Source: a virus. Taken from it: a stretch of 45,992 nucleotides of DNA. Positions 3,395 to 45,215 of the stretch are shown one piece after another (position 1 is the stretch's first letter; each line of letters opens with the position of its first letter). The notes under the pieces were generated by a model. It did no database searches. It saw only the letters and a program-made list of their open reading frames with translations, and was not told the DNA's origin. The position numbers were made by a program, and so were the translations under genes. The stretch covers positions 1 through 45,992 of IMG/VR virus record IMGVR_UViG_3300038441_002108, one strand, 5' to 3'.

Positions 3395-4039
3395 TCAACT
3401 AATGGCGAAGAGCCCGCCGTTGTTCCAAAGTTTTCCTGGCGTGGCCGGGAGATCCGTAGGGAGTAACGCTATAATGTTTTCAAGGGCAGCCACAAGCGCG
3501 GCATCGGGCTGAACCGCCGTATCGGCCTTAGCACCTTGCGCTGCCGTGGCAAAGTACTCCACGTCTTTCGTCGAGGCGGTTCCGAGATTTTCCGCTAGGG
3601 CCAAAAACTCTTGCAGTTCCTCAGGCGTAAGTGGGTCCTGTCCCACCTCCACCATCAGGGCCCGGCCGAGTCCCTCCGCCAATTGCTGTGTTTGCATTAC
3701 GATATGATCCAGCTGTCGCATAAGCGTTACTGGATTAAATCCCCCGTAGGTAGGTATATTAAGCTCTTGCTTATACTCAACGATCCGCTCTATGACAATA
3801 TTCAGCGTATCATCCAAGGGGCTTCCGGCCACGGGATAGGTAACTGTGCCCCCGTCTGGTTCATCCAGCCCGATAACATCGTAAGACCCCGAGGCCAAAA
3901 CTTCCGTGATAACTCCCGTGGCCACGTCTTGCAGGCTTACCTGCAGAGTGCCCGATGGAATTATGAAGTTAAACCCGAAGTCCGTTGCAGCCCCGTTACC
4001 TTGGTATATAACAAGCCGGTCAGTAGTTTCGAGTGTCAT
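3395..4039 (-). CDS. T7 gp17-like tail fibre N-terminal adaptor protein
   Basis: A 214 aa protein whose first about 140 residues match the N-terminal domain of T7-type tail fibres: YQGNGAATDFGFNFIIPSG, GSYDVIGLDEPDGGTVTYP, then a helical LMRQLDHIVMQTQQLAEGLGRAL segment. This domain anchors fibres at the adaptor/nozzle interface of short tails. The protein lacks a long distal shaft, so it probably serves as a branching adaptor to which the fibre at 1981-3384 docks. Its ATG overlaps the upstream stop (TAATG), so it is translationally coupled to the giant internal virion gene. Confidence in the domain is high; the docking partner is inferred. Confidence 0.85.
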   Translation of the reverse strand: MTLETTDRLVIYQGNGAATDFGFNFIIPSGTLQVSLQDVATGVITEVLASGSYDVIGLDEPDGGTVTYPVAGSPLDDTLNIVIERIVEYKQELNIPTYGGFNPVTLMRQLDHIVMQTQQLAEGLGRALMVEVGQDPLTPEELQEFLALAENLGTASTKDVEYFATAAQGAKADTAVQPDAALVAALENIIALLPTDLPATPGKLWNNGGLFAIS

Positions 4040-7000
4040 TATCGTCTCCTTTCAGGAAGATGACTACCAACGGCGGCTTCAGCTGCGTCGACTGTGCTAC
4101 GAAGTATAACCGTGTTCTGATACGGAAGCAAGCGCCTGAAATCACGCAGGGTGCTTTGCGTCGGCTGGTCAAGGCCGGTTACGACGTTAGAGGCACTTTG
4201 AAGGAAACCTAAACTTGGCCCCCCTAGCGCCTCAACGAGATCATCCCCAGGCCGCCGAGTCTGTCGACTGCCGCTGAAGCTCGCGATGGGTTCGAGGAGG
4301 GGAATGGTCTGGGCGATGCGCTGAACTTCCGACACGGTGCCGAGAAGGCCCGACCGATTAATCGCCTCGTCCGCCCACTTATCCAAATCCGCCTTCATCA
4401 TGTCTTCATAGGCCTTCCCGCCCGTGGCCACAGCCCACAGGTAGTACGACATCGCGCCGAGCCCTAGGCTCGCCATACTTCCCGCGAGGATACTTGCATC
4501 ACGCTGTTGCAGCCCAGCCATCGTAATCTTCGGCATCGAGGCCATCCCGAAGGATTTAAACTGATAGAGCATCCGGCCCAGCATGTTCACATCCGAAAGG
4601 AGCGGGCGTTCAACTCCGGGGCGAATGATTGTATTTGTTACCTCACGAGCGAGCGCGGCTCGGTAGGCACGAAGAGCGATCGGGTCCGTCCAGGACTCAG
4701 TGTTAGGCCACCAGACCCCGTCGACCTTTCCACCCCCACCGTCGGCAACCTGCTTCCAGATCCGTTCCGCCAGCACTCCATCGATCCCGTTTTCCGCCAG
4801 AAACGTGGTGGCCGCCTTGTCCGTCATCGTCCCGCTTGCGGTATTGATCCGGGCGAGGGAGTCCATCAACTTCGCGTTAGCAATCGAACTCGTAACAAGT
4901 TCTCCGGCCTGCGTCCAATAGTCAAACAGCGCCACGATACCCATTCGATTCGTGGCATACTCGATCCCTTTTTCTACCGCCGAGCCGTGGTGGAGTTCGT
5001 CCGTGATATCCCGATACGCCATCGAGCGCTGATGCGCCGATATATCCGTGCCCACGCCCGCGAGGTGGGCTTCCCGGGCGTTCAGCTTCATCGTCTTTAA
5101 ATTCGTGACCAACGGCGCGAACCCGTCGCGGAACGTCCGCGTTAGCCCATACCGCATGACCGGACGGCCCAAATCAGGGAACGACGACGTGAGCACCATA
5201 CCCATCTGACGAAGCACGTTCAGGTTCATAATCGTGCGGGCGGCGCGGTAGGCGAACCCGTCCGGATCGCTGGGCAAGCCCCGCGTACCACGAAGTCGAT
5301 CCACGATTGCAAGGAAGTTTTTCTTGTTCTGGTCGAACGCGTTGTTGAGCTTCAGCTGCCGCGTCGATTGACGTGCTTCGAACCCGCGGGGGTCCGCGCC
5401 CTCGGGAGGTGCAGTCTCCCCTACGGCTTTGATTTTCGCGTTCAATTCATCGATGGCGGGCTGGAGTATTTCCGAGCCGTTGATCGTCCCGAACTTATTC
5501 ATCAGCTCAATGTCCGGACCGAGGGTCCGAGTGTACACGCGGGTCAAGCGGCGGATGTCCTTGTCGAGGAATTTGTCGATCTCCTTTGAGGAAATGTGAA
5601 GGACGCGTCGGAGTTCGCTCCCGCGCTTCTCGGCCATCACCTCCATATACGGAAGCCTCAGGTAGGTCCCCATGATCTTGTCCTTCACCTGCTCCGCCGC
5701 GGCCCGGGAAGTCTCCTTAAAATTCGCAATCCCCGTCTCAGGATTCACATCGTCGGCGCGGAAGTCCCGAACCCAGCGATTGACGAAATCGTTCTCCGCG
5801 CGCTGGGGAGCGGCATTCGCCTCGGCCAGTCTCGCGCGTGCGACCTCGGGGTCCAACTTCGCGGCCTGTTCGCGCAGTCGCTGATTGCGGAGCACGCGGC
5901 GGGCGTTGATCGACTGAACCTTTTCCAGGGTCTTGTTGAGTCCCTCGTTGATGGTTGCGCGGATCGCGGTGCGGTCGAGGTTCTCGGCGTTTTCCAAACG
6001 CTCCGCAACTGCGTCGAGCCGTTCCGCCCGCCCCTGCTGTACATCTTCCAGGGCTCCGAGTCGATGGACGTCCTCGTCATTCTCCGCCAGTTTCACAAGG
6101 CGTTCCTCGCCCCGATCGTACACCTCCCCTGCTCGGGCAAACTGATCTTTCAGCTTCGCCACTTCGGCATCGAGCTTTTTATCGCCCCACTTGTCCAACT
6201 GGCGTAGCGTGGTCTGAGCCTTCGAAACCAGACGCGACAGCGTCGTGAGCGACAGCTCTTCAGTCCGATCAATGCGGTCGAGCTTGGCCGCCCGCCGCGC
6301 ATCCACCGCAACCACGGCCTTGTTCAGGTTCCCGATCCGCCTACGCAGCCGGGCCCGCTCGCCCTTCACCTTTTCGTACGGCTCGCCCGCTGTCTTCTCC
6401 ATATCCCGGGCATCTTTCAGCAGCCGCTTATACGTCGCTTCCTCCCCTGGAGACAGGGTGCCGTTGAGTCGCATGGCCCGAGCGGTAGCCCGGTTCGTCG
6501 CTACGGCCTCCTCGAGCATCTGGATTTCCTCGGGCAGCCCTTCCTCAACTCCTTTGAGTTCTTCTCGGAACTTCTCGAGCAGTTCGTCCACCTCGCTTTC
6601 CGGCCGGGCCAGGTCCTCCGCGAGTTCCCTGCGGTTCTGCTGCTTTCCTTTGAACCCTTCGAGTTCATCCGCGAACCGTTGATTCAGATCCTTCTCATAA
6701 TTTGTGGCGAGGATCCGGACGAATTCGTCAGTGTTCGCTCGGATCGCCTGCCGGTTATACTCACGGTTCACATACGCGGCGTCCCCCACTACCTGTACGT
6801 CTTCGGGAAGAAGCTTCGCTTCTTGCGCGGCTTTCAGTATCGGCTCATAAACGTTCTTGGCTACTGCCTGCGCCGCCTTGGCCACCTCCGGAACATCGTG
6901 TTGGAAGCCGTTCCAGATCGCGCGAGTGACTTCATCCGAGAACTGACTTGCCGAGAGTTTTCCGTTTGCGTTAAACGTGCCGGCGAGGTTCGCTCTAAGG

Positions 7001-26143: not shown

Positions 26144-26659
26144 ATGCAAGTTGTACGCGAATACGCCAAGCGCGAAACCCAAAAGAGCGACTGGTCCGGC
26201 GACATTGGCCGGATTGTTCTGGAAACGGATGCGACGGTTATGAAGCTGAACGGGCAAGTCATCCCATTGGGCTCGATGGAGTACCTGCTTACGTTTGCCC
26301 TGCAAGCCTTTCAGGATGCATACGCAGGAGCGCAGAGCCTCGGCGACGCAAAAGGGAGCTTTAACAAGAAGCTCGACGCGGTTATCGCCGGTACGATCGG
26401 CGTGCGGAGCGGGGGCGGAACCTCGGTTTCGGATGAAACGCGCATTTCACGGCAGGTTGTGCGGGAAATCTTGCGCAAGAAGCTCAATAAAGCCGTGTAC
26501 GATCGCGACTATAAGGACAATGACGAGGCGGTCGACGCGGCGTTCGCGAAGAACGCGGAAAAGTTGCAGCCATTTGTGGATGAACGTTTGGCGGAACTGC
26601 GCAAGGAGCGGGCGCGGAAGGCTGCGTTGGCTCAGAAGGGTGGCGATTTGGAATTGTAA
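26144..26659 (+). CDS. early protein with C-terminal DLEL tail
   Basis: A 171 aa protein, mainly helical and charged, with a central low-complexity spot (GVRSGGGTSVSDETR) and a C-terminal long helix (FVDERLAELRKERARKAA) ending KGGDLEL. No family recognised; the charge pattern and size would suit a DNA- or RNA-binding protein. The stop codon is one base before the hammerhead ribozyme, so self-cleavage would trim its mRNA just past the stop. Confidence 0.7.
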   Translation: MQVVREYAKRETQKSDWSGDIGRIVLETDATVMKLNGQVIPLGSMEYLLTFALQAFQDAYAGAQSLGDAKGSFNKKLDAVIAGTIGVRSGGGTSVSDETRISRQVVREILRKKLNKAVYDRDYKDNDEAVDAAFAKNAEKLQPFVDERLAELRKERARKAALAQKGGDLEL

Positions 26660-26713
26660 GGCCGAAACGGGCGCGAATGCCCGTCCACACGTAAGGCGTG
26701 TGCTGATGAGGCC
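26660..26713 (+). ncRNA. type II hammerhead self-cleaving ribozyme
   Basis: All conserved parts are present in permuted (open stem II) order. GGCC (26660-26663) pairs with GGCC (26710-26713) as stem II. GAAA occupies 26664-26667. Stem III is ACGGGC/GCCCGT with loop GCGAAT. The cleavage triplet GTC ends at C26685. Stem I is CACACG/CGTGTG with loop TAAGG, then the core CTGATGA at 26703-26709. Every helix is perfectly paired. The predicted cut is between 26685 and 26686, which leaves a 47-nt 5' leader with AAGGAGG for the next gene. Confidence 0.93.
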
Positions 26714-26732
26714 GATAAGGAGGGCCGATCCT

Positions 26733-26927
26733 ATGGACAAGAAACTCGCAAAGCAACTCGTGGACGCACACAGGAAGACCGCGGAACTGTATAATGAGGC
26801 CGCAAATCGTGCCTGTGAAAGCGGCGGACCGTTCGAGGTGTATCATTTGATGAAGCTTATGATCGCGGAGGAAGGAAAAATCCGGGCACTCGAGAACCGC
26901 TATCTGCGTGGGGAGCTGGGCGCATGA
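26733..26927 (+). CDS. small helical early protein downstream of the ribozyme
   Basis: A 64 aa, fully helical, charged protein (MDKKLAKQLVDAHRKTAELY start). AAGGAGG sits 9 nt before the ATG, inside the sequence left downstream of ribozyme cleavage. No family recognised. Its stop overlaps the next small start (ATGA). Confidence 0.7.
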   Translation: MDKKLAKQLVDAHRKTAELYNEAANRACESGGPFEVYHLMKLMIAEEGKIRALENRYLRGELGA

Positions 26928-27022
26928 GCGGTTTTATCGCCTCCGTCCTCGCGCGGCTCGCAGCCGGGACCATATCACGCCGTGACGCCGAACGGTTGAT
27001 TGCGTGGGCCACGCGGCCATAA
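26924..27022 (+). CDS. 32 aa microprotein, putative
   Basis: Starts in the stop of the preceding gene (ATGA) and reads MSGFIASVLARLAAGTISRR then a short basic end. It is followed by a strong terminator at 27045. Coupling and the downstream terminator support translation, but it is too short for composition tests. Confidence 0.45.
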   Translation: MSGFIASVLARLAAGTISRRDAERLIAWATRP

Positions 27023-27531: not shown

Positions 27532-27564
27532 TTTACATATGGCCCAGTTTTGGGTAAAATACCC
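27532..27564 (+). promoter_or_regulatory. early sigma-70 promoter with operator-like dyad on the -10
   Basis: TTTACA (27532-27537) and TAAAAT (27555-27560) are spaced by exactly 17 nt. The -10 box lies in the perfect dyad GGGTA-AAA-TACCC (27552-27564), a likely repressor site. It should drive the small early genes from 27632 onward. Confidence 0.8.
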
Positions 27565-29545: not shown

Positions 29546-29598
29546 ACCCCAACGGGGTTGACAGTTTCGGATCGCCCCCATCATACCCCAGGTGGGGT
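29546..29598 (+). promoter_or_regulatory. TTGACA promoter candidate between CCCC/GGGG dyads
   Basis: TTGACA at 29558-29563 overlaps the dyad ACCCC-AAC-GGGGT (29546-29558). A weak -10 (CATACC, 18 nt away) overlaps a second dyad ACCCCA-GG-TGGGGT (29585-29598). A third CCCC-AAC-GGGG is at 29633-29643. Repeated dyads on both boxes suggest a repressor. The -10 match is poor. Confidence 0.5.
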
Positions 29599-29720
29599 CA
29601 AGCCGAGCGGGCCGTAAGGCCCGCCGGCGCTCCCCCAACGGGGATGGGCGATTGAAACCTGTCACCGCGAGGACAGGGCCCCCGGAACAAATTGGCGGGC
29701 CGAGTTCGCAGCCCGCCCGA
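29599..29720 (+). ncRNA. hairpin-rich leader upstream of second ribozyme
   Basis: Three clear hairpins: GCGGGCC-GTAA-GGCCCGC (29607-29624, GNRA loop), CCTGTC/GACAGG (29658-29677) and GGCGGGC/GCCCGCC (29694-29717). No gene is seen. It runs straight into the hammerhead candidate, so the whole leader may be one structured regulatory RNA. Confidence 0.6.
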
Positions 29721-29722
29721 GA

Positions 29723-29777
29723 GACGAAACGGGCGCAAGCCGGTCCAGCGCACATGGCCCCGCGCTGCTGAAGAGTC
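29723..29777 (+). ncRNA. second hammerhead ribozyme candidate (type II)
   Basis: Same permuted order as 26660-26713: GAC (29723-29725) pairs with GTC (29775-29777) as stem II. GAAA is at 29726-29729. Stem III ACGGGC/GCCGGT is closed by a GCAA tetraloop with one G-G mismatch. GTC ends at C29745. Stem I CAGCGC/GCGCTG is perfect (loop 10 nt), followed by core CTGAAGA at 29768-29774. Position 7 of the core tolerates any base, so A is allowed. Weaker than the first because of the mismatch and 3-bp stem II. Confidence 0.75.
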
Positions 29778-29795
29778 AGGCCAAAGGAGATCCAA

Positions 29796-30059
29796 ATGAC
29801 TTTCGAAGAACTCAACTTCATCCCCCATCCCGCGGCAAAGCTTCCTTCGGATATCCGCGCCCGCGTAGATTTCGCCAACGGCTACGGTGCTTCAGTTATC
29901 CGAACTTCATTCAGTTATGGCAATGAAGAGGGCCTCTTCGAACTCGCCCTCATGAAAGACGGCCACCTCCATTACGATGAGCGCATCACCACTGACGTCC
30001 TCGGCCACCTTTCCTCCGAGGAAGTTACCCAAATCCTCCAACAGATCGAGGCACTCTAA
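29796..30059 (+). CDS. early protein downstream of second ribozyme
   Basis: An 87 aa protein (MTFEELNFIPHPAAKLPSDI start) with an AAAGGAG ribosome site placed 18 nt after the hammerhead. Beta strands in the centre, helical end (SSEEVTQILQQIEAL). No family recognised. Its stop overlaps the next start (TAATG). Confidence 0.7.
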   Translation: MTFEELNFIPHPAAKLPSDIRARVDFANGYGASVIRTSFSYGNEEGLFELALMKDGHLHYDERITTDVLGHLSSEEVTQILQQIEAL

Positions 30060-40041: not shown

Positions 40042-40230
40042 ATGCAGTACATCCTCTTCAACATCCACGGCGGCTGGCAAACCAACGGGGGCGCCCGCCA
40101 CAGTGACTACCGTCAGGCGGCGATCTTCGACGAGGCCGAGGCCCTCGACATGTGCAAACTTCACACTGGCCGCCTCGTCCCCGTCGACCGCGCGTTGTAC
40201 GAGCGCGCAATTGGGGGGCCTTCCAAGTGA
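40042..40230 (+). CDS. small protein, unknown
   Basis: A 62 aa protein (MQYILFNIHGGWQTNGGARH start) with a helix DEAEALDMCKLHTG. The stop lies in the GTGA start of the ParB-methyltransferase gene, so the two are translationally coupled. No family recognised. Confidence 0.6.
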   Translation: MQYILFNIHGGWQTNGGARHSDYRQAAIFDEAEALDMCKLHTGRLVPVDRALYERAIGGPSK

Positions 40231-41507
40231 CCTCGGGCCTCTTCACCTCCACCCCTATCGAGACCATCACCATCAACCGGGCCGATCGCCAGCGCCGGGA
40301 ACTCCGCGGCATCGATGAACTCGCCGAGTCCATCCACCGCCTCGGCCTCATCCATCCCATCGTCATAGACACGGATGGGGTGCTGGTCGCTGGTGAGCGC
40401 CGCCTCACGGCGGTGAAGTCCCTGGGCTGGACCCACATCCCTACCCAACTTTCCACCGACCTCGATCCGCGCACTCACCACGCGATCGAACTCGAGGAGA
40501 ACGTGAAGCGTCAGGACATCACCTGGCAGGAGCGGGCCCTCGCCATGGATAAATACCTGGAGATCCGCCGGGAACAAGAGGGCTCCATGTCCCAGGCGGC
40601 GGTCGCCACGGAACTCGGCCTCAGCAAGATGGACGTTGGGCGGAACCTCGCCGTCGCGGAAGCGCTGAAGTCCGGGGATGAACGAGTCGCCAAGGCGGAT
40701 AAATTCTCCACCGCCGTGAACATCGTCGAGCGCACGAACTCGCGCAAGGCGGCGAACGCGATCGATGCGGTGGAGGCCAGGGTCGCCCAGGTCATCGCCC
40801 TCCCGGACGAGGCCCCGACGTCTACCTCGAAGGTGGTGCCGCTTCTGAACGAGGACTTCCACGAGTGGGCCGCGGCGTACACCGGGCAGCCCTTCAACTT
40901 CCTCCACTGCGATTTCCCCTACGGCGTGGGGATGCACAAGTCGGACCAGGGGGCGGGCCAGGAGTTCGGCGAGTACGCCGACGACCCGGACGTCTTCTGG
41001 AAACTCCTCAACACCCTCGACATGAGCATGTCCAATGTGGTCGCCGAGTCCGCCCACCTCATGTTCTGGTTTTCAATGGATTACTACAGTGAAACGAAAA
41101 AGATCCTCGAAAAAATGGGTTGGAAAATCAACCCCTTCCCGCTCATCTGGCTCAAGTCTGATAACACCGGAATTATTCCGGATGCTAATCGCGGCCCGCG
41201 CCGCATATACGAGACGGCGTTCTTCGGCTCACGCGGGGACCGGAAGATAGTCCAGGCCAAGTCCAACGCCTTCGCATACCCAGGGAGAGAAAAGTCTATT
41301 CATATGAATGAAAAGCCCGTGGCAATGCTGAAGCATTTCATGGAGATGTTCACGGATGAATACTCGTTTGTTCTTGACCCCACTGCCGGCAGCGCCAACG
41401 CCCTCAAAGCAGCAACTGTTCTTGGCGCAGGCAGGGTCCTGGGCCTTGAGCGGGACCCCGAGTTCTTCCAACGCAGCTCCGAGGCCTACTTCGCAGACGA
41501 GTTGTGA
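40227..41507 (+). CDS. ParB-like domain fused to DNA methyltransferase
   Basis: A 426 aa protein starting with GTG. Residues about 10-110 form a ParB/Srx-type domain (GIDELAESIHRLGLIHPIV, GERRLTAVKSLGW at 56-68), followed by a helix-turn-helix (AAVATELGLSKMDVGRNL). The C-terminal half is a class I DNA methyltransferase: motif IV LHCDFPYG (DFPY in place of the usual DPPY), then motif I VLDPTAGSANALKAA near the end, so the order is IV before I (beta-like). It probably protects phage DNA from host restriction or marks it. A dispersed-repeat copy follows the stop. Confidence 0.85.
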   Translation: MTSGLFTSTPIETITINRADRQRRELRGIDELAESIHRLGLIHPIVIDTDGVLVAGERRLTAVKSLGWTHIPTQLSTDLDPRTHHAIELEENVKRQDITWQERALAMDKYLEIRREQEGSMSQAAVATELGLSKMDVGRNLAVAEALKSGDERVAKADKFSTAVNIVERTNSRKAANAIDAVEARVAQVIALPDEAPTSTSKVVPLLNEDFHEWAAAYTGQPFNFLHCDFPYGVGMHKSDQGAGQEFGEYADDPDVFWKLLNTLDMSMSNVVAESAHLMFWFSMDYYSETKKILEKMGWKINPFPLIWLKSDNTGIIPDANRGPRRIYETAFFGSRGDRKIVQAKSNAFAYPGREKSIHMNEKPVAMLKHFMEMFTDEYSFVLDPTAGSANALKAATVLGAGRVLGLERDPEFFQRSSEAYFADEL

Positions 41508-41562: not shown

Positions 41563-41883
41563 ATGCCAGACGTAACACTCGAAGATGCCGTAAAGGAAAT
41601 CCAGAGCTTCCGCCCGACCGAAGATCTCATCTCGGAGCGCGGCACCACCCACGGCAACTATGATAACACCGCCCGCTATATCCAGCAGTTGAAATACGTG
41701 ATCGCCACCGCCTGCGTCGAGCGCAAGCGTCGGGGTCAGGACCAGCTCACGAACCAAGAACGTGAGTCGCTCGAGATGATTATGCACAAGGCCGGCCGGA
41801 TCCTCTCCGGCGACAGCCACTTCCGAGACCACTGGGATGACATCGCGGGGTATGCCAAGATCGCAACGCAGAAGGAGTTCTGA
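41563..41883 (+). CDS. DUF6378-like protein
   Basis: A 106 aa protein with the family's SERGTTHGNYDNTARYIQQL motif, a helix with ESLEMIMHKAGRILSGD and HWDDIAGYAKIA. Proteins of this family occur in many phages near replication genes; an NTP-metabolic role has been suggested for relatives but is not shown. ACGGAGACC upstream; 1 nt before the next start. Confidence 0.75.
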   Translation: MPDVTLEDAVKEIQSFRPTEDLISERGTTHGNYDNTARYIQQLKYVIATACVERKRRGQDQLTNQERESLEMIMHKAGRILSGDSHFRDHWDDIAGYAKIATQKEF

Positions 41884-41884
41884 G

Positions 41885-42928
41885 ATGTCCGGCAACGGCA
41901 TCATGCTCGTTGGCGAAGCGTGGGGGGAGGCCGAAGCGGAAGCTCGGCAGCCCTTCATCGGCAAGAGCGGCTGGCTCATCAAGCAACTCCTTTCCCAGGT
42001 CGGGATCGAGTACCGCGACTGCGCCGTCACCACCGTCTTCAACCTCCGTCCGCCCGGCTCAAACGACGTCATCAATCTCTGCGGGGCTAAGCCCGAAGGC
42101 ATAAAGGGAATGCCGGCGCTGGTGAAGGGCAAGTTCGCCCGGGCTGAATACACCCCGGAACTGGCCCGGCTCTACGGAGAGATCAACGATGAAAATCCTA
42201 ACCTCATCATCGCGCTGGGTGCGACGGCTGCGTGGGCGCTCCTCGGCACATCGGGTATCCGAGCTATACGTGGCGCACCTATTGGAACTACTTCGCCAGC
42301 TTCAGCCGCAACCGGAGTCAGTCTATCTCGTACCTTCAAAGTACTACCAACATATCATCCTGCGGCTGTCCTCCGAGAATGGTCCCTTCGCCCCATTGTC
42401 CTGGCCGACCTTGATAAGGCCCGCCGCCAGTCCCAAGATCCAAGTATTGTCCGTCCCTCTCGCGAAATATGGGTCGAGCCCACACTCGAGGACCTTCAAG
42501 CCTACGAACAGGAATACATCCTCCCCGCCCGGCGATTGAGCATCGACATCGAAACCAAGGGCGACCAGATCACTTGCATTGGTTTCGCCCCCAGCATCTC
42601 CTCGGCGATCGTAATTCCCTTCTGGAGCAAAGCGCAAAAGGACGGGAACTACTGGCGGACCGCCGCCGAGGAGATGCGCGCTTGGGCATACGTCAAGCGG
42701 TGGTGTAAGATGAAACCGTCAGTGTTCCAAAACGGTTTATACGACATCCACCGCCTGTGGCGCACCTACGGCATAGCCTGCACCCTCGCCGATGCCGACA
42801 CCATGCTCTGCCACCACGCCCTGCAGCCCGAGATGGAAAAGGGACTGGGGTTCATGGGCACGGTGTACACGGAGGAGGCATCATGGAAGTTCATGTCCCG
42901 AATGGAAACTCTTAAAAAGGAAGATTGA
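41885..42928 (+). CDS. uracil-DNA glycosylase fused to the front half of a 3'-5' exonuclease
   Basis: A 347 aa protein. Residues 7-165 form a family 4-type UDG fold (LVGEAWGEAEAEARQPFIG, LIIALGATAAWALLG, motif YHPAAVLR at 157-164). From about 215 a DnaQ-type exonuclease begins: ExoI LSIDIETKG (D221, E223) and ExoII FQNGLYDIHRL (D288), then LADADTMLCHHALQ and YTEEASWKF, where a DNA polymerase A would continue into ExoIII. The protein ends there (KKED); the ExoIII motif is found in the polymerase gene at 43683. It probably works together with the separate polymerase protein. Confidence 0.85.
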   Translation: MSGNGIMLVGEAWGEAEAEARQPFIGKSGWLIKQLLSQVGIEYRDCAVTTVFNLRPPGSNDVINLCGAKPEGIKGMPALVKGKFARAEYTPELARLYGEINDENPNLIIALGATAAWALLGTSGIRAIRGAPIGTTSPASAATGVSLSRTFKVLPTYHPAAVLREWSLRPIVLADLDKARRQSQDPSIVRPSREIWVEPTLEDLQAYEQEYILPARRLSIDIETKGDQITCIGFAPSISSAIVIPFWSKAQKDGNYWRTAAEEMRAWAYVKRWCKMKPSVFQNGLYDIHRLWRTYGIACTLADADTMLCHHALQPEMEKGLGFMGTVYTEEASWKFMSRMETLKKED

Positions 42929-43351: not shown

Positions 43352-43695
43352 TTTATCTCGCCTCGCCGTATTCCCACGAGGACCCGCTGATTATGAAGAC
43401 CCGGTTCCTCTTGGCCGAGCAGGCCACCGCCATCCTTCTTCAGCGCAAGGCCTGGGTATATTCCCCCGTCGTCCACTGCCACGAACTCGCCGCGAAGCAT
43501 TCCCTTCCCACCAACTTTGCCTATTGGCAGGAATACAACATCGACATGCTTCGCCGCTGTGATGCTTTCTATATCCTCGCGGTCTCCGGGTGGAAGGAAA
43601 GTAAAGGCGTCACCGCCGAACTTACTGTGGCCCAGATGCTCGGGCTCAAGATCGCACACATGAATGAACTGGGAGAAGTAGTGTGGCCCGCATAA
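43348..43695 (+). CDS. DUF1937 protein (nucleoside deoxyribosyltransferase-like)
   Basis: A 115 aa protein with the DUF1937 pattern: IYLASPYSHEDPLIMKTR, YSPVVHCHELAAKHSLP, AFYILAVSGWKESKGVTAE, AQMLGLKIAHM. The fold is that of nucleoside 2-deoxyribosyltransferases, but the substrate of phage members is unknown; a role in nucleotide metabolism or modification is plausible given the nearby UDG. GTG start in a GTGA overlap; it overlaps the polymerase start by 13 nt. Confidence 0.8.
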   Translation: MIYLASPYSHEDPLIMKTRFLLAEQATAILLQRKAWVYSPVVHCHELAAKHSLPTNFAYWQEYNIDMLRRCDAFYILAVSGWKESKGVTAELTVAQMLGLKIAHMNELGEVVWPA

Positions 43696-45215
43696 TCAAC
43701 ACTTCTGACCTCTCCCCCGAGTACATGGCCTGCATGTCCGGCGACGATGCCTACTGGGTTTACAACGGCCTCGACGTTTGCGTCACCGAGGAGATCCGCG
43801 GCGTGATCGAGCCCATGCTCGACAACACCACGCGATCCACCTACGAATTCTCCAAGGCCCTCCAGGCCCCGGTCCTTGAAATGATGATGCGGGGGCTGCT
43901 CGTCAACCAGACCCGTCGGGCCACCGTCATCCGAGAGTTCGAAACCAAGCTTTCCCAACTCGAACATCAGCTGAAGCTCATCCTCGTGGAGGGCGTGGGC
44001 GTGGACCCGGGCTTCAACTGGCGTTCGCCCAAGCAGATGGCAACGCTGCTTTACGACATCCTTCAGCTCCCTGTTCAGAGGAAACGCAATGCAAATGGAG
44101 TTTTCGCACCTTCAACGGATCGCACAGCTTTGGAAAAACTTTCCGGGTACTTTATTGCTGAGCCAATCATTGCCCATATGCTCGCACTTCGAGACCTGGG
44201 AAAGTCTTTGGGCTTTCTTAGAACAGGCATCGATCCCGATGGACGGATGCGAACTAATATTAATATCGCTGGAACCAACACAGGACGATGGGCTTCGTCT
44301 GAGTCTGACTATGGAACTGGTACGAACCTCCAGAACGTAACCTCTTCCCTCCGTTCCGTTTTCGTCGCCGATCCCGGAATGAAGTTCTGCAACATGGACC
44401 TCGAGCAGGCCGACTCCCGCAACCTGGGCGCCCTGATCTGGGATCAGTTCCTTGACGAGTACGGGCCCGAGGCGGCCGGGAAGTATCTCGACGCGTGTGA
44501 GTCGGGCGACCTTCACACCCAGGTCTGCAAGATGTGCAACCCGCATCTTCCCTGGGGCGACGGGCGCACAGATCGCGAGATCGCCAACATGCTTTTCTAC
44601 CGGGACAAGTCCTACCGCGACGGGAGCAAAGTCCTCGGTCACGGGAGCAACTATCTGGGCCAGCCCCGCACTATGGCCAAGCACACCAAGTTCCCCGAGG
44701 GCGATGTGGCCCTCTTCCAGTCCAACTACTTCCGCGCCTTCCCCCTCATCCCGCAGTATCACAAACATATCCGCTCCCAAATCAAATCCTTCTCCCACCT
44801 CACGACCCTCTTCGGCCGCCGCAGGTATTTCTTCGGTCGCCCCGACGACGACTCAACCATCCGTGAAGCCGTAGCATACTCCCCGCAAAGCATGACCGCC
44901 GACGAGATCAACACAGGTATCCTCAACATCTGGCGCGCCAACAAGGTCCAGCTTCTCATCCAAGTCCACGACTCAATCCTCTTCCAGTACCCCGAGCATC
45001 TTGAAAACGAAATCGTACCGTGGGCCCTCGAGGCGCTCAAAGCGCCTTTGGAACTTCGCGGTGGGAGACCCTTCGTCGTCCCCACCGAAGCCATGACCGG
45101 CTGGAATTGGGGCTACCACAGCGAGCGCAACCCCGATGGGTTAAAGAAATGGAAGGGCTCGGACCCTCGCACGAGGGAAGATACCGAGTTCAAATTGTCA
45201 ATCCGAGGAATGTGA
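43683..45215 (+). CDS. family A DNA polymerase (starts at ExoIII; exonuclease front half in another gene)
   Basis: A 510 aa polymerase. Residues 24-37 (YWVYNGLDVCVTEE) are an ExoIII (YxxxD) motif, so the N-terminus begins in the middle of an exonuclease domain; ExoI and ExoII are in the UDG gene at 41885. Polymerase motifs: TGRWASS (200-206), motif A CNMDLEQADSR with D239, motif B SKVLGHGSNYLG (315-326), motif C QVHDS (427-431, where S replaces the usual E). GTG start behind GGGAG. A functional polymerase could assemble from both proteins. Confidence 0.9.
   Translation: MARIINTSDLSPEYMACMSGDDAYWVYNGLDVCVTEEIRGVIEPMLDNTTRSTYEFSKALQAPVLEMMMRGLLVNQTRRATVIREFETKLSQLEHQLKLILVEGVGVDPGFNWRSPKQMATLLYDILQLPVQRKRNANGVFAPSTDRTALEKLSGYFIAEPIIAHMLALRDLGKSLGFLRTGIDPDGRMRTNINIAGTNTGRWASSESDYGTGTNLQNVTSSLRSVFVADPGMKFCNMDLEQADSRNLGALIWDQFLDEYGPEAAGKYLDACESGDLHTQVCKMCNPHLPWGDGRTDREIANMLFYRDKSYRDGSKVLGHGSNYLGQPRTMAKHTKFPEGDVALFQSNYFRAFPLIPQYHKHIRSQIKSFSHLTTLFGRRRYFFGRPDDDSTIREAVAYSPQSMTADEINTGILNIWRANKVQLLIQVHDSILFQYPEHLENEIVPWALEALKAPLELRGGRPFVVPTEAMTGWNWGYHSERNPDGLKKWKGSDPRTREDTEFKLSIRGM

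Follow-up and report, generated by a model that had tools for sequence, protein, structure and literature searches.

The window analysed here, that is, the whole 45,992-nucleotide stretch of the virus record IMGVR_UViG_3300038441_002108, contains two predicted type II hammerhead ribozymes, denoted A and B, that share a strand and lie between co-directional genes. The first base of ribozyme A is the base directly 3' of the TAA stop codon of a gene for a 171-amino-acid (aa) protein, and behind it come a Shine-Dalgarno sequence, two small open reading frames (ORFs), the first of which we call the cargo ORF, and an intrinsic terminator. The features, all on the plus strand, are as follows:

26144–26659, plus strand: upstream gene, 171 aa, with homologues in relatives; its TAA stop (26657–26659) adjoins ribozyme A
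26660–26713, plus strand: type II hammerhead ribozyme A, compact class (RF02276, 37.7 bits; R1, 64.3 bits; class covariation)
26660–26663, plus strand: 5' strand of stem II, GGCC, partner of 26710–26713 (from sequence)
26664–26667, plus strand: core GAAA (G12 A13 A14 A15.1; from sequence)
26667–26684, plus strand: stem III, A26667–U26684 plus CGGGC/GCCCG, with loop GCGAAU (from sequence)
26685, plus strand: C17, predicted cleavage 26685/26686 (from the Rfam alignment)
26686–26702, plus strand: stem I, CACACG/CGUGUG, with loop UAAGG (from sequence)
26703–26709, plus strand: core CUGAUGA (from sequence)
26710–26713, plus strand: 3' strand of stem II, GGCC (from sequence)
26717–26723, plus strand: Shine-Dalgarno sequence AAGGAGG of the downstream gene (from sequence)
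26733–26927, plus strand: downstream cargo ORF, 64 aa, without detectable relation to the ORF at the same place in relatives
26924–27022, plus strand: 32-aa microprotein ORF, with weak similarity (E 0.013) to an ORF in the same position in L094
27047–27076, plus strand: intrinsic terminator, end of the transcription unit of ribozyme A
27532–27560, plus strand: sigma-70-like promoter between A and B, TTTACA-17-TAAAAT (consensus match only)
29722–29785, plus strand: type II hammerhead ribozyme B, pseudoknot class (RF02276, 28.1 bits; R1, 32.3 bits)
29755–29759, plus strand: UGGCC, the loop I side of the pseudoknot of B, pairing with GGCCA at 29779–29783 (5-bp pairing)
29796–30059, plus strand: 87-aa gene following ribozyme B, phrog_4074 (PHROG match)

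Protein look-ups of the flanking genes gave no family over the cut-off except phrog_4074 downstream of B. The 171-aa protein had no Pfam or PHROG match over the cut-off, and its AlphaFold model, which is of modest confidence (pLDDT 71, pTM 0.40), had no match in a fold comparison with the PDB. Elsewhere in the window, the DNA polymerase (phrog_17) is present as two plus-strand ORFs (41837–42925 and 43683–45212) that are about 750 bases apart; an insertion, intron or natural split might account for this. By PHROG matches, a further plus-strand ORF (40152–41507) fuses a DNA methyltransferase domain with a ParB-like nuclease domain.

All available tests of sequence and structure identify 26660–26713 as a type II hammerhead. 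The first-pass annotation had proposed a complete element here, cleaved after C26685, and the letters listed above, which were read directly from the sequence, bear this out: the core is full, with GAAA, GUC and CUGAUGA where RF02276 requires GAAA, UH before the cut and CUGANGA, the three stems form without a mismatch, C17 falls on C26685 in the Rfam alignment as well, and the element sits directly after the stop codon and 19 nt before the ATG at 26733. The topology is also that of RF02276, with loops closing stems I and III, an open stem II and an A15.1–U16.1 pair. The same annotation had named the lack of a covariance model hit as one of two findings that would count against its proposal, an objection that falls away given that Rfam cmscan matches RF02276 to 26660–26720 with 37.7 bits (E 3.3e-4) against a gathering threshold of 37. 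R1, a covariance model made from 17 compact elements of other, unrelated viral contigs (the compact class is described below), scores ribozyme A at 64.3 bits (E 1.5e-16).

A relaxed descriptor run on both strands of the window matched ribozymes A and B and nothing else; on 200 dinucleotide shuffles, it gave 11 matches, one of them comparable in quality to ribozyme A. The whole-sequence fold of the native stretch is no more stable than those of shuffles (z 0.2), so that free energy by itself is no evidence for a ribozyme. In the minimum-energy folds of this stretch, 26710–26713 pairs with a second GGCC at 26723–26726, a pairing that is favoured by about 1 kcal/mol and would break stem II. Conserved sequestration of the Shine-Dalgarno sequence was dropped as a candidate because it arises solely through the GGCC palindrome of the window. 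The site of ribozyme A has no DNA similarity to sequenced phages.

Ribozyme B is absent from the first-pass annotation; it was found by a family search of the record and again in a permissive scan, scoring 28.1 bits with RF02276, that is, under the threshold of 37, and 32.3 bits (E 3.6e-7) with R1. The core of B consists of GAAA, GUC and CUGAAGA, with predicted cleavage at 29745/29746; position 7 of the hammerhead core is free. Stem II is GAC/GUC, stem I has 6 bp and a 10-nt loop, and stem III includes one G-G mismatch. The counterparts of the UGGCC/GGCCA pseudoknot are UAGCC/GGCUA in the relative L009 and UGCCC/GGGCA in L005, such that the pseudoknot is preserved by compensation. The ATG of the 87-aa gene follows 10 nt after the ribozyme. 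Directly upstream of B, there is a strong hairpin, GGCGGGC...GCCCGCC (29694–29717, plus strand), which is located in a region of 250 bases where no gene is evident, with a TTGACA near 29560.

Among viral contigs, 276 stretches are related to the window by their terminase; 80 of these were kept. Type II hammerheads are present in only 8 of the 44 larger terminase relatives and are thus dispensable over evolution, and pairs of ribozymes like that of the window occur in these relatives, with two each in G002, G004 and G016 (Rfam) and in G001 (R1). Homologues of the 171-aa gene were identified in L094, L095, L099, L103, L102, L083/L097, L096, L098, L100 and L101 as well as in Mesorhizobium and Brucella loci. 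Ribozyme A has counterparts behind the stop codon of the homologue in five relatives (L005/L095, L009/L094, L014/L099, L076/L103 and L102), where the homologues that were aligned are 35–62% identical to the window protein. Among these five, base changes in the stems are compensated, the behaviour expected of a type II hammerhead in related sequences, and across the relatives the ribozyme starts on the stop codon or within a few bases of it (TAAGGAC, TAGGAC, TGAGGAC, TAAGGTC and TAAAGGAC). In L083 (record G002), the ribozyme lies upstream of the 171-aa homologue and not downstream.

In the window and all five relatives, at least one small ORF lies 3' of the ribozyme, and a terminator lies behind the small ORFs in all of these except one relative; in that relative, L102, no terminator was detected in the 1.3 kb examined, and two small ORFs follow in succession, each with its own ribozyme. 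The first cargo ORFs are mutually without detectable relation (best E about 0.01 to 0.03). At the junctions that lack a ribozyme (L096, L098, L100 and L101), the terminator comes 12–50 nt past the stop codon, with no small ORF before it. The simplest reading of this comparison, a small sample of 6 junctions with and 4 without a ribozyme, is that, owing to the ribozyme, cargo can be accommodated between the gene and its terminator with the messages kept apart. Microprotein ORFs of 32–33 aa are found near ribozymes in the window (26924–27022, plus strand), L094 (6916–7017) and L083 (1198–1287), the copies of L094 and L083 being 50% identical and that of the window weakly similar. Past the 171-aa homologue of L101, positions 6505–6550 hold TGAGGCGAAAC and then a hairpin and a T-run; the sequence at this ribozyme-less junction, TGAGGCGAAACGCGGGACGG...CCGTCCCGTTTTC, resembles the first half of a hammerhead and is perhaps one in which stem III turned into a terminator, a single case that might be due to chance.

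The homologues in Mesorhizobium and Brucella suggest a host among the Hyphomicrobiales; against this, the ribozyme scan pattern described below is absent from all 347 genomes searched in this order. R1 gave no matches in four host genomes among the 150 candidates scored per genome.

For a survey of viral contigs, we used the pattern GACGAAACN{8,38}GTCN{17,25}CTGATGAGTC, which does not require pairing in stems I and III. Both stems are present in 129 of the 137 distinct matches listed, compared to 0 of 650 sequences with the middle shuffled, and the absence of the pattern from the 347 genomes points to a very low chance background. The scan and the relatives together comprise at least 206 distinct ribozymes in at least 158 clusters. 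Among the matches listed, 117 of 158 clusters (74%) start from −15 to +6 nt relative to an upstream stop codon (7.9% for random positions), 93 are at most 3 nt from the stop codon, and 99 have a Shine-Dalgarno sequence and a start codon within 40 nt downstream (8.3% for random positions). As a rule, type II hammerheads in viral contigs lie between two co-directional genes, as ribozyme A does, and relatives conserve this position. At least 44 loci carry two or more ribozymes on the same strand, many of them 210–500 nt apart, and ribozymes on both strands were found in none of 111 loci among the matches listed; L212, with 7 ribozymes, and L220, with at least 7, have about one per gene. The downstream genes belong to many families, the largest of which accounts for at most 3 of 69.

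The length of stem I plus its loop is bimodal among the type II hammerheads found. The compact class (112 clusters listed) has 16–18 nt of stem I plus loop and a 4-bp stem II, whereas the other class (38 clusters listed) mostly combines a 3-bp stem II with a pseudoknot; the requirement of the scan pattern for GAC/GTC in stem II biases the ratio between the classes. GGAC is stem II in 79 of 103 compact elements, loop I is U-N-A-N-G (U in 78, A in 61 and G in 50 of 80) or its 6-nt variant, and an A precedes stem II in 61 of the 63 elements that abut a stop codon and 35 of the 37 that do not. Every position of the compact stem I is Watson-Crick paired in at least 94% of elements (75–80 of 80), compared to 24–49 of 80 with the partners dealt anew, and both sides have changed in 13 of 16 pairs; the covariation score is 0.82 versus 0.17 after shuffling, with strong covariation in the columns of stems I and III. 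Pairing of at least 5 bp in the pseudoknot is found in 89% of the pseudoknot class, versus 50% with tails exchanged. For the compact class, a pseudoknot, also considered for ribozyme A, is ruled out by the mean pairing of 3.56 versus 3.68 with tails exchanged; what is conserved are the UNANG letters of the loop, together with the A that precedes stem II. Ribozyme A displays the compact features, with a 4-bp stem II, a 5-nt loop I and no pseudoknot, and its UAAGG is the commonest loop in the class. At 20 loci, by our own count, the Rfam threshold recovers 8 of 12 pseudoknot elements and 1 of 49 compact ones; most compact members are thus missed, and phage genomes are under-annotated.

In the Streptomyces phages R4, Paedore and Yara, type II hammerheads form arrays that keep to one strand and occupy the gaps between successive small genes. 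Over the Rfam cut-off, R4 has 9 elements and Paedore 11 (with 1 more below it), L218 being identical to cultured Paedore over the stretch compared; in Yara, R1 detects 8 elements and Rfam 2, both under the cut-off. The array of Paedore is of the pseudoknot class and that of the Yara-like contig L220 is compact. Several annotated starts in R4 overlap ribozymes, and gp75.1 (3755–3856), gp67.1 (6712–6804) and gp60.1 (9084–9167 of L242, the R4 sequence), of 27–33 codons, each overlie a type II hammerhead, which is why we regard them as probable annotation artefacts; by extension, some tiny annotated phage 'genes' are probably ribozymes. In the open literature, we found no paper linking Streptomyces phages with hammerheads in this sense.

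The identity of the element, its covariation, gene position and conservation, and the match between ribozymes and extra ORFs are direct observations. Judging from the sequence, ribozyme A probably cleaves itself and thereby separates the 171-aa gene from the cargo cistrons of an early message; its conserved position between co-directional genes fits inter-cistronic cutting, and the same stop-codon placement in relatives and many phages suggests that phages cut long messages into single-gene messages with such ribozymes. We infer that, in the cell, A would cut the early message after C26685, probably during transcription, between the stop codon of the 171-aa gene and the small cargo gene. The upstream message would end 26 nt past the stop codon with the stable stem III hairpin and a 2',3'-cyclic phosphate, and the downstream message would start with a 5'-OH and the stem I hairpin, followed by the Shine-Dalgarno sequence. 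Neither a terminator nor a second promoter would be needed to separate the cistrons, such that a cargo gene could be placed between the conserved gene and its terminator, and ribozyme B would play the same role upstream of a second gene block. Hairpins at the 3' end hinder exonucleases in the decay of bacterial RNA, and a 5' end formed by a hairpin with a 5'-OH presents no 5' monophosphate to RNase E. Both new ends would be expected to shield the pieces, with effects on stability and translation that would uncouple the fates of the two messages. Against this explanation stand the alternative pairing favoured by about 1 kcal/mol, the G-G mismatch of B, the presence of ribozymes in only 8 of 44 relatives and the 4 inactive ones among 18 consensus hammerheads tested by Perreault et al. 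(PMC3088659).

The placement and the alternative hairpin could also indicate that cleavage is regulated, with translation acting as the switch, either because a terminating ribosome covers stem II and GAAA or because the GGCC-GGCC hairpin competes with the ribozyme. This is compatible with the 93 of 158 clusters at most 3 nt from a stop codon (among the matches listed) and with the similar energy of the window hairpin around the Shine-Dalgarno sequence, but that hairpin needs a window-specific palindrome, whereas 79 of the 103 compact elements have GGAC as stem II, and the stop register may partly reuse an A that is present before stem II in 35 of 37 non-abutting elements as well; we consider such a switch rather unlikely. 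A circular or joined RNA, formed when a pair of ribozymes frees a fragment with a 5'-OH and a cyclic phosphate that is then ligated into a circular message, appears highly improbable: the pairs 210–500 nt apart do flank single genes in many loci, but A and B of the window are separated by a terminator and a promoter-like site, and a search by Perreault et al. for spliced or circular products was negative (PMC3088659).

We give just as little credence to the idea that the conserved letters act in DNA, as a recombination seed for gene-cassette swaps, with RNA cleavage incidental. Unrelated cargo after the ribozyme among relatives and downstream genes from many different families would fit swapping; the covariation of stems at the RNA level and the conserved loop positions would not, given that a DNA seed needs identity and not compensation. 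That A is a chance match or a functionless, dead relic is hardly credible at all: its Rfam score is barely over the cut-off, but its position is conserved, its stems covary, R1 assigns it 64.3 bits, and the DNA pattern occurs in 0 of 347 bacterial genomes.

Returning to self-cleavage between cistrons, we lean, by a modest degree, toward a broader interpretation under which a large, mostly un-annotated compact subclass, characterized by a stem II of 4 bp, a loop I of the form UNANG or UNRNUG and, before stem II, an A that is usually supplied by the stop codon, would serve as stop-registered gene separators, interchangeable with terminators and permitting the addition of cargo with messages kept separate; in some genomes, there would be one such ribozyme after each gene. 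The locus offers a natural comparison, ribozyme plus cargo versus bare terminator at one conserved gene, that bears on the purpose of the phage type II hammerheads reported in 2011. Any functional model is now faced with a placement rule, flush with the stop codon and with a Shine-Dalgarno sequence just after, and laboratory phages with 8–12 copies, namely, R4 (Streptomyces coelicolor) and Paedore (S. lividans), allow tests.

Ribozyme A belongs to a known kind, the type II hammerheads that Perreault et al. described in phages in 2011 (PMC3088659). Four aspects are, we believe, new: the register relative to stop codons, the interchange of ribozymes with terminators, the size that arrays reach in culturable phages and the compact subclass, most of which escapes the Rfam model; this subclass may be partly known already because non-pseudoknot contacts were mentioned in 2011 (PMC3088659). 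For the stop-codon register, no description was found in the open literature, subscription papers being outside the search.

Compared with known systems, ribozyme A shares with RF02276 the permuted topology, the core, the cleavage site and the location between phage or prophage genes, often in clusters (PMC3088659), and clustered or tandem prophage hammerheads cleave in vitro (PMC3088659). Unlike the published type II consensus, in which loop I and the 3' tail form a pseudoknot, with at least 4 bp in the majority (PMC3088659), A is devoid of a pseudoknot; most of the survey set is like A, with a 4-bp stem II and a 5–6-nt loop I. The triple hammerhead around ardA of Agrobacterium tumefaciens, which is reported to be active in vitro and also upon expression in E. 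coli (PMC3088659), likewise has several ribozymes cutting between phage-type genes, as is predicted here, but the genes in the window are different. In the haloviruses HF1 and HF2, 13 nt separate a hammerhead from an early helicase gene downstream of it, so that it lies just upstream of an early viral gene as in the window, and the 5' end of a halovirus early mRNA lies at most 3 nt from the hammerhead cut (PMC3088659); the RF02276 match in HF2 scores 41.1 bits. Unlike the window phage, these are archaeal viruses, with a variant core as reported. A further close arrangement is that of R4, Paedore and Yara, where, as in the window, type II hammerheads lie between consecutive genes on one strand, but these genomes carry many copies, compared to A and B in the window.
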